Notes under the pieces: generated by a model
Database searches by the model: none
Seen by the model: the letters and a program-made list of their open reading frames with translations, nothing else
What the model was told of the DNA's origin: nothing
Program-made: the position numbers and the translations under genes
NCBI GenBank assembly: GCA_018645325.1
Contig: JABGOU010000011.1
Span: 1-64,000 of the forward strand
DNA: 64,000 bases
DNA from: Desulfobacula sp.
GTDB lineage: Bacteria > Desulfobacterota > Desulfobacteria > Desulfobacterales > Desulfobacteraceae
Direction: 5' to 3'
Part shown: positions 3,020 through 57,964 of the stretch, in pieces
Layout: the number at the start of each line of letters is the position of its first letter
Numbering within the stretch: position 1 is the stretch's first letter

Positions 3020-3226
3020 GTAATCATTCAGCTCTTACGCTTGAAACCGCCCTGTCTGATGAATATTTGTCAGGTATATGCCGTGTTTTTACAACGCAGC
3101 CGGACAGGATGAATCGACTTACAAAATGTAAAGTTATTTTTGAGTGGTCCCTAAACGCTTAACCTCCTGCAAATATCCATAAGACAGGGCTTTGGTGATA
3201 TTTTTTTTAACGGGCTGAACAATTAC
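3020..3226 (+). mobile_element. MITE-like palindromic repeat, enlarged variant (copy 1)
   Basis: 207-bp copy. The ends match the family (GTAATCATTCAGC at 3020, GCTGAACAATTAC ending at 3226). The 8 bp on each side are AGAAATTG (3012-3019) and TAAAATTG (3227-3234), a 6/8 match read as a worn target duplication. The left arm, CCCTGTCTGATG, breaks off and about 95 bp of unrelated sequence replaces the usual 20-25 bp centre before the right arm resumes with CTTAACCTCCTGCAAATATCC. It sits about 20 bp after the zinc-ribbon gene. Confidence 0.8.
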
Positions 3227-12122: not shown

Positions 12123-12256
12123 GTAATTATTCAACTTTTGCGTTTGAACCCGCCCTGTCTGATGGATATTTGTTTCGAGGCTATTTGCTTAACCTCCTGC
12201 AAATATCCATCAGACAGGGCTTTGGGAATATTTTTTTTAACGGGCTGAACAAATAT
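12123..12256 (+). mobile_element. MITE-like palindromic repeat (copy 2)
   Basis: 134 bp between exact 8-bp direct repeats AATTTTTG (12115-12122 and 12257-12264). Ends GTAATTATTCAAC and GCTGAACAAATAT. Inside, a 20-bp arm CCCTGTCTGATGGATATTTG pairs with its complement about 30 bp later, so a transcript would fold into a long hairpin. The insertion lies 43 bp after the methyltransferase stop. Confidence 0.9.
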
Positions 12257-42257: not shown

Positions 42258-42391
42258 GTGATTATTCAGCTCTTACGCTTGAACCCGCCCTGTCTGATGG
42301 ATATTTGTTTCGAGACTATTCGCTTAACCTCCTGCAAATATCCATTAGACAGGGCTTTGGGGACATTTTTTTTAACGGGCTGAACAATTAC
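42258..42391 (+). mobile_element. MITE-like palindromic repeat (copy 3)
   Basis: 134 bp, ends GTGATTATTCAGC and GCTGAACAATTAC, with flanking 8-mers AAAGTACT (42250-42257) and AAAGTATT (42392-42399), 7 of 8 identical. The internal 20-bp arms are CCCTGTCTGATGGATATTTG and its complement with one change (ATCCATTAGACAGGG). Lies 67 bp upstream of the kinase gene start. Confidence 0.9.
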
Positions 42392-47084: not shown

Positions 47085-47113
47085 TTGACATGCTTAAAGT
47101 GTATGATTAGAAT
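47085..47113 (+). promoter_or_regulatory. Sigma70-like promoter for the IscA/HesB-like gene
   Basis: TTGACA (47085-47090), 17-bp spacer, TAGAAT (47108-47113), 59 bp before the ATG of the UGA-containing gene. This indicates the gene is transcribed on its own. Confidence 0.65.
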
Positions 47114-47172
47114 CAAAGACATAGGTAAGAAGAACCTTGAAAAATAAACAACCGAATAAGGAGAGTTTTACA

Positions 47173-47490
47173 ATGATTGATTTGACAGATCCTGCAAAAG
47201 TGCAGATAAATGAATATTTCCAGGGCAAAGAGCCCACCCCTATTAGGATTTTCCTCAATTCAGGCGGCTGAGGCGGCCCTTCCCTTGCCATGGCTCTGGA
47301 TGAGCCAAAAGACTCAGATGACACCTTTGATGTTAAAGGACTGAAATTTGTTGTTGATAAAGAATTTATGCAAAAAGCTGAAAATATTAAAGTAGATTTC
47401 ACTGGAATGGGATTTCATCTTGATTCTAATATTGACCTGGGAGAATCCGGATGCGGAAGTTGTGGTTCCGGAGGCTCCTGTGGTGATTAA
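47173..47490 (+). CDS. IscA/HesB-family selenoprotein (Sec at codon 33)
   Basis: 105-residue A-type iron-sulfur carrier-like protein interrupted by an in-frame TGA at 47269-47271 (codon 33). On both sides the same frame codes for the family: IRIFLNSGG before, GGPSLAMALDEPK and FTGMGFHLD after; the TGA takes the place of the conserved cysteine of this motif. The C-terminus is GCGSCGSGGSC, cysteine-rich as in A-type carriers. The ATG has AAGGAG nine bases before it, a promoter (47085) and a terminator (47512). I read the UGA as selenocysteine, as known for HesB-like selenoproteins. A nonsense mutation is the alternative, but the intact downstream frame argues against it. Confidence 0.85.
47291..47307 (+). 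promoter_or_regulatory. Candidate bacterial SECIS hairpin
   Basis: Stem TGGCTC/GAGCCA (6 bp, 47291-47296 with 47302-47307), loop TGGAT with G in its second position. The loop starts 25 bases after the UGA, within the distance known for bacterial SECIS elements, and lies inside the coding frame as is required in bacteria. Confidence 0.65.
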
Positions 47491-47511
47491 GAGATTAGGT
47501 TTTTTATAAAG

Positions 47512-47545
47512 AAAAAGATGGTCATTTATTTTGACCATCTTTTTT
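47512..47545 (+). terminator. Rho-independent terminator of the selenoprotein gene
   Basis: AAGATGGTCA pairs with TGACCATCTT (47515-47524 with 47532-47541), extended by A/T pairs, 7-base loop and nine Ts. Begins 22 bp after the stop. Confidence 0.9.
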
Positions 47546-47562
47546 TTTATCCTGATATGGTT

Positions 47563-47698
47563 GTAATTATTCAGCCCGTTAAAAAATAGTTATCCCCAAA
47601 GCCCTGTCTGATGGATATTTGCAGGAGGTTAAGCGAATAGCCTCGAAACAAATATCCACCAGACAGGGCGGTTTCAAGCGTAAGAGCTGAATAATTAC
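47563..47698 (-). mobile_element. MITE-like palindromic repeat (copy 4)
   Basis: 136 bp with perfect 13-bp terminal inverted repeats GTAATTATTCAGC/GCTGAATAATTAC, flanked by exact 8-bp repeats ATATGGTT (47555-47562 and 47699-47706). The right duplication abuts the last base of the thiamine pyrophosphokinase stop codon. Orientation is reversed relative to copies 2, 3 and 5. The best-preserved copy. Confidence 0.92.
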
Positions 47699-47706
47699 AT
47701 ATGGTT

Positions 47707-57830: not shown

Positions 57831-57964
57831 TTAATTATTCAGCTCTTGCGCTTGAAACCGTCCTGTCTGATGGATATTTGTTTCGAGGCTATTCGCTTAA
57901 CCTCCTGCAAATATCCATCAGACAGGGCTTTGGGGATATTTTTTTTAACTGGCTGAACAATTAC
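57831..57964 (+). mobile_element. MITE-like palindromic repeat (copy 5)
   Basis: 134 bp ending GCTGAACAATTAC, with exact flanking 8-mers AATAAACT (57823-57830 and 57965-57972). It lies between converging genes, 3 bp after one stop codon and 8 bp before the other. Confidence 0.92.

Follow-up and report, generated by a model that had tools for sequence, protein, structure and literature searches.

The locus raises a simple question: is the TGA that interrupts an IscA/HesB-like reading frame in this Desulfobacula contig read as selenocysteine (Sec), or is it the mark of a broken gene? The features discussed below are collected in Table 1, with positions given in the window, that is, the whole stretch of 64,000 nucleotides analysed here. 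Our answer is that the locus holds a functional selenoprotein gene, transcribed singly and of the NF038090 type. We put the probability at about 0.95, a figure that covers Sec decoding and family and excludes function.

Table 1. Features of the selenoprotein locus, with positions in the window
Feature	Position	Strand	Basis or remark
Predicted sigma-70-type promoter TTGACA-17-TAGAAT	47085..47113	+	11/12 consensus; recurs in close relatives
Putative ribosome-binding site GGAGA (Shine-Dalgarno), 8 bases 5' of ATG	47160..47164	+	read from sequence
IscA/HesB-type selenoprotein gene	47173..47490	+	105 residues, Sec at 33 (U33), TAA stop
UGA read as selenocysteine (Sec33)	47269..47271	+	relatives' codon and E. 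coli IscA alignment
Bacterial SECIS hairpin TGGCTC-TGGAT-GAGCCA	47291..47307	+	codon constraint across Sec forms
Codons 94-103, tail cysteines C94, C97, C103 (CxxC, not CxC)	47452..47481	+	translation, alignment
Likely terminator: hairpin of 19 pairs with a T run, lying between convergent genes	47506..47550	+	folding, z -8.8

Reading frame, family and predicted fold

With the TGA translated as Sec, the description of the frame given by the first-pass annotation proves accurate. The 72 sense codons that it reported beyond the TGA are there, followed by the TAA, and the ordinary list of open reading frames (ORFs) holds, in the same frame, only the 66-residue tail (47290-47490) that gene callers were expected to report. 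In an alignment with E. coli IscA (PDB 1s98 and 1r94) the TGA falls on the first conserved cysteine, the place that had been assigned to it by the motif of A-type carriers. What is confirmed is a gene that ordinary ORF calling truncates.

Profile searches place the product in NF038090 (IscA_HesB_Se), with 114.4 bits against a cut-off of 85. With U typed as C it also exceeds the cut-off of PF01521 (Fe-S_biosyn; 32.1 versus 26.3 bits), and it scores 43.6 bits with TIGR00049, whose cut-off is 58.8. Matches to NF038090 were found in 260 of 291 genomes from the class (254 above the cut-off) and in 220 of 395 genomes from the phylum (168 above it); judged by the selenoprotein sequence, the nearest named relatives are Desulfobacula. 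All rows of a 58-row alignment that includes the window protein match this profile, at E-values up to 0.001. The AlphaFold model has a mean pLDDT of 79.7, with residues 90-105 below 50, and Foldseek matches it to IscA/SufA structures (best E 2.1e-7, for IscA). As modelled, the product would combine an IscA-like fold with a flexible, cysteine-rich tail.

Codon 33 and the hairpin that follows it

Among the 112 matches from the window and loci L017-L126, codon 33 is TGA in 109 and TGC in three. This set comprises top-scoring loci only, and is less biased than an enlarged set of 170 matches, in which TGA occurs 148 times, TGC 19 times and TGT three times; the Sec/Cys ratio of the latter is biased because 10 of its 22 Cys loci (L127-L136) were selected as Cys, being listed without a stop. 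Alignment with cysteine homologues, proposed at the outset as a check, finds TGC or TGT at exactly the TGA codon in 22 of the 170 matches. Sec and Cys forms stand side by side in nine loci of other Desulfobacterota (L025, L128, L149, L150, L151, L158, L169, L173 and L174), and in these tandem paralogues the Cys copies lack the five-pair hairpin described below. Resolved forks are scarce in the tree, with 29 of 158 starred, and its eight Sec/Cys changes may be gains or losses. Starred branches carry three Sec/Cys contrasts, a number insufficient for a sign test.

Stops or frame shifts further downstream in relatives had been named as the sign of a pseudogene, and they are nearly absent: the next stop lies 67-80 codons from the TGA in 147 of 148 Sec-form matches. 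The sole exception, L094, has an odd tail of 128 codons before its stop; it is probably frame-shifted, perhaps through an assembly error. Against 51 close relatives, changes at the three codon positions number 156/66/576 before the TGA and 255/136/1142 after it. The median dN/dS is 0.10 before (50 pairs) and 0.06 after (44 pairs), one upstream and seven downstream comparisons having been dropped for want of a usable dS. On these comparisons, the frame after the TGA is under purifying selection.

The hairpin was described by the first-pass annotation as a 6-bp stem with a G-bearing five-base loop, 25 bases downstream. Stem and loop (TGGAT) stand as described, but the distance needs correction: the stem lies 19 bases past the TGA and it is the loop that lies at 25. 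This segment encodes Met-Ala-Leu-Asp-Glu-Pro. Across 141 distinct Sec forms, Ala is written GCT in 141, Leu CTG in 140 and Glu GAG in 139, with all four codons occurring for Gly(+2) and Pro(+3) in the same forms; among 22 Cys forms, GCT is found in 5, CTG in 11 and GAG in 9. Of the 141 Sec forms, 137 have the five inner stem pairs and 78 the complete set of six; none of the 22 Cys forms has either (codon and pairing counts refer to 163 distinct sequences from the 170 matches). The contrast in pairing is not purely synonymous, because some Cys forms have other residues at these positions, Glu being retained in 13 and Ala in 20 of the 22. In a reduced set of 47 Sec forms below 75% DNA identity, the same codons occur in 47 (GCT), 46 (CTG) and 46 (GAG), where the expected shares are 0.16, 0.36 and 0.36, respectively. 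The inner pairs are nearly invariant: there is no covariation, synonymous constraint only. As a single sequence the hairpin folds no better than chance (z -0.46, equalled by 64 of 200 shuffles), and an Rfam search of window and locus matched no SECIS family. RF00031 is uninformative, as it matched neither the window's own genome nor any of 14 controls. The 15-base motif GGCTCTGGAYGAGCC has a single match in the window, at the hairpin, with a shuffle mean of 0.00. By comparison of relatives, and not by fold energy, the SECIS hairpin is under constraint in Sec forms. GCT-CTG-GAY-GAG, located 8-11 codons past the UGA, provides a clear synonymous-site signature that could serve to recognise HesB-type selenoprotein genes in Desulfobacterota.

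The presence of selABCD had also been set as a test, and all four components are in the genome (assembly G000, 90.3% complete): tRNA-Sec (selC; 75.5 bits, ARAGORN concurring), selA (582.9 bits), selB (337.8 bits; G000:C13:68161-70059, reverse strand) and selD (342.4 bits; L014, G000:C125:34334-35260). selB shares its contig with the selenoprotein gene, 4 kb past the window end. The selD gene has one in-frame TGA and is likely to encode a selenoprotein too. If the established mode of bacterial Sec insertion operates here, SelB and Sec-tRNA(Sec) would bind the mRNA hairpin at its 19-base distance from UGA47269, and Sec would be inserted where A-type carriers have their first cysteine.

Were the TGA simply a Cys codon that mutation has turned into a stop (TGC/TGT to TGA), the locus would be a pseudogene. 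One base indeed separates TGA from the Cys codons, and the same-genus drafts G145 and G223 gave no match to NF038090, the gene being maybe dispensable or missing from these assemblies. However, the TGA is common to 109 of 112 matches, the hairpin codons are frozen, and the frame beyond the TGA appears to be under purifying selection; on these grounds we rejected decay, to which we grant practically no chance. Because the TGA is shared, the hairpin codons are frozen and the Sec machinery is present, this is almost certainly a selenoprotein gene. Decoding of the TGA without selenium, whether through simple read-through or by insertion of some other residue (e.g., Trp or Cys), is very unlikely: all 170 matches have either TGA or a Cys codon at this place, and the five-pair hairpin accompanies TGA but is absent from all 22 Cys forms. 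Such decoding was rejected on the presence of selABCD and the TGA/TGC/TGT exchange. The identity first proposed, a HesB-like selenoprotein, is upheld by the NF038090 score, the shared TGA and the Sec machinery.

Transcription unit and neighbourhood

The claim that the gene has its own promoter and terminator holds up. The 11/12 promoter and the 19-pair hairpin are there, but the terminator scan did not list the hairpin, probably because its T run sits inside the stem, and promoter-like sites at the locus are not above shuffles (4 seen versus a mean of 3.4). In close relatives, compared without a shuffle control, TTGACA with a spacer of 16-17 bases outranks every other site within 160 bases upstream in all 23 usable loci (L047-L070, excluding L061, whose gene lies at a contig edge so that the upstream slice is an artefact). 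The -10 box is TAGAAT in 15 of these, TAAAAT in 6 and TTAAAT in 2, and the sites fit the consensus at 11/12 in 21 cases and at 10/12 in two. For the putative ribosome-binding site, a AAGGAGAG-like block is present again in most close relatives; a count of 97/147 from the upstream comparison was left unused, as contig-edge slices are possibly included. Read from the sequence, the predicted promoter, the GGAGA and the 19-pair hairpin frame the selenoprotein gene as a single gene unit.

The flanks are occupied by what we take to be a galE-like gene on the opposite strand and a convergent thiamine-pyrophosphokinase-like gene. A galE homologue (66-87% identity) precedes the selenoprotein gene in 30 of 80 loci, besides two weak 25% matches elsewhere, and a homologue of the downstream gene lies beside it in 23 of these 80. 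In distant relatives the same strand carries, upstream, genes that are presumably FmdB-like zinc-ribbon (L097, L101, L119, L122, L123) and macro-domain-like (L109, L119, L123). Within flanks of at most 1.5 kb, the neighbourhood of the 80 loci gave no functional hint.

A MITE-like element of about 130-140 bp lies nearby, at 47562-47699, and further full or partial copies are found at about 3021-3225 (this first copy measuring about 205 bp), 12124-12219, 42259-42390 and 57832-57963. The element ends in 14-bp terminal inverted repeats, TGTAATTATTCAGC, and has a 21-bp palindrome in its interior. Its inner pattern has 10 matches (up to 3 mismatches) where 0.03 are expected, and its repeat-end pattern 11 where 0.67 are expected.

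Possible role and comparison with known systems

A-type Fe-S carriers have three cysteines, of which the second and third form a CxC, seen as CGC in the IscA chains of our alignment. The window protein departs from this three-Cys motif, its first member being Sec and its tail CxxC; among 139 distinct Sec forms, the tail is CxxC in 109 and CxC in 15, leaving 124 with no CxC. Of the cluster-carrier reading offered by the first-pass annotation, the IscA-like fold and the first Cys position hold, while the A-type CxC is replaced by CxxC. Since CxxC takes the place of the A-type CxC here and in most relatives examined, the protein is at most a candidate carrier.

We give even odds to a real selenoprotein that is a thiol/selenol redox enzyme or a binder of selenium, sulfur or heavy metal, and not an Fe-S carrier; selenol-thiol redox chemistry or metal binding is as likely as a carrier role. 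The 124 of 139 Sec forms are in its favour, and so is a Foldseek match to Allochromatium vinosum DsrR (E 4.8e-4), a sulfur oxidiser's protein that we take to be IscA-like. On the other side, the protein retains an IscA-like placement of selenol and thiols that would be able to bind a cluster, and C94 and C97 are invariant across the 58 aligned rows. Sec33 and C94/C97/C103 could form a metal or Fe-S site, or a selenenylsulfide redox pair, and might act beside a NifU/IscU-type assembly system. A 2026 review (PMC13188914), in its accessible text, regards a redox role as likely for most uncharacterised selenoproteins and describes the functions of the group that includes the HesB-like family as largely uncharacterised.

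Searches of the assembly with NF038090 and TIGR00049 found the selenoprotein gene alone, with TIGR00049 below its cut-off. PF01521 found nothing in it, missing the selenoprotein gene itself, and across 59 genomes of the family it matched in two, at L175 and L176, which are Cys forms of the selenoprotein's own family; because even the window gene was missed, such genome searches test only weakly for divergent members. The SUF core profile PF01458 had no match in the window's own genome and matched all 14 controls, and NifU_N had three matches in that genome. Judging from these profiles, the selenoprotein may be the only A-type-like protein beside NifU/IscU-type scaffolds in this 90.3% complete assembly. 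PF01521 found no canonical A-type carriers in the genus and its family; that a step of Fe-S, other metal or sulfur trafficking would accordingly be selenium-dependent we consider unlikely. If the protein is truly the sole A-type-like one of these sulfate reducers, the function of its family could be tested where no canonical paralogue masks it.

HesB-like selenoproteins are a published family (NF038090; PMC1794560; PMC13188914), to which, on the accessible parts of these sources, the window gene adds one member. The portion of Zhang 2006 available (PMC1794560) lists 11 of them, with bearers including Desulfovibrio, Syntrophobacter and Geobacter. PMC11097638 cites mutagenesis and 75Se labelling that identified a HesB-like selenoprotein in Methanococcus, gives its function as unclear and mentions, from unpublished work, that N2 fixation is not impaired in a mutant with the gene disrupted, which speaks against an easy assignment of function. 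Our literature search found no paper naming IscA_HesB_Se and, going by titles and abstract openings, no further paper on this gene.

IscA, SufA and ErpA resemble the window protein in fold and in the position of the first cysteine. It differs from them in having Sec for that Cys and CxxC for CxC in the tail, and it scores far below their equivalog cut-offs. Within NF038090 the gene is a member above the curated cut-off, with no distinguishing feature found. Its UGGP fits the UxGP motif that the accessible text of PMC13188914 gives for the HesB-like family, represented by TIGR01911 (HesB_rel_seleno); the protein nevertheless stays below the cut-off of that model (32.2 versus 66.35 bits), and the NF038090-type protein probably represents a sister subfamily to TIGR01911.
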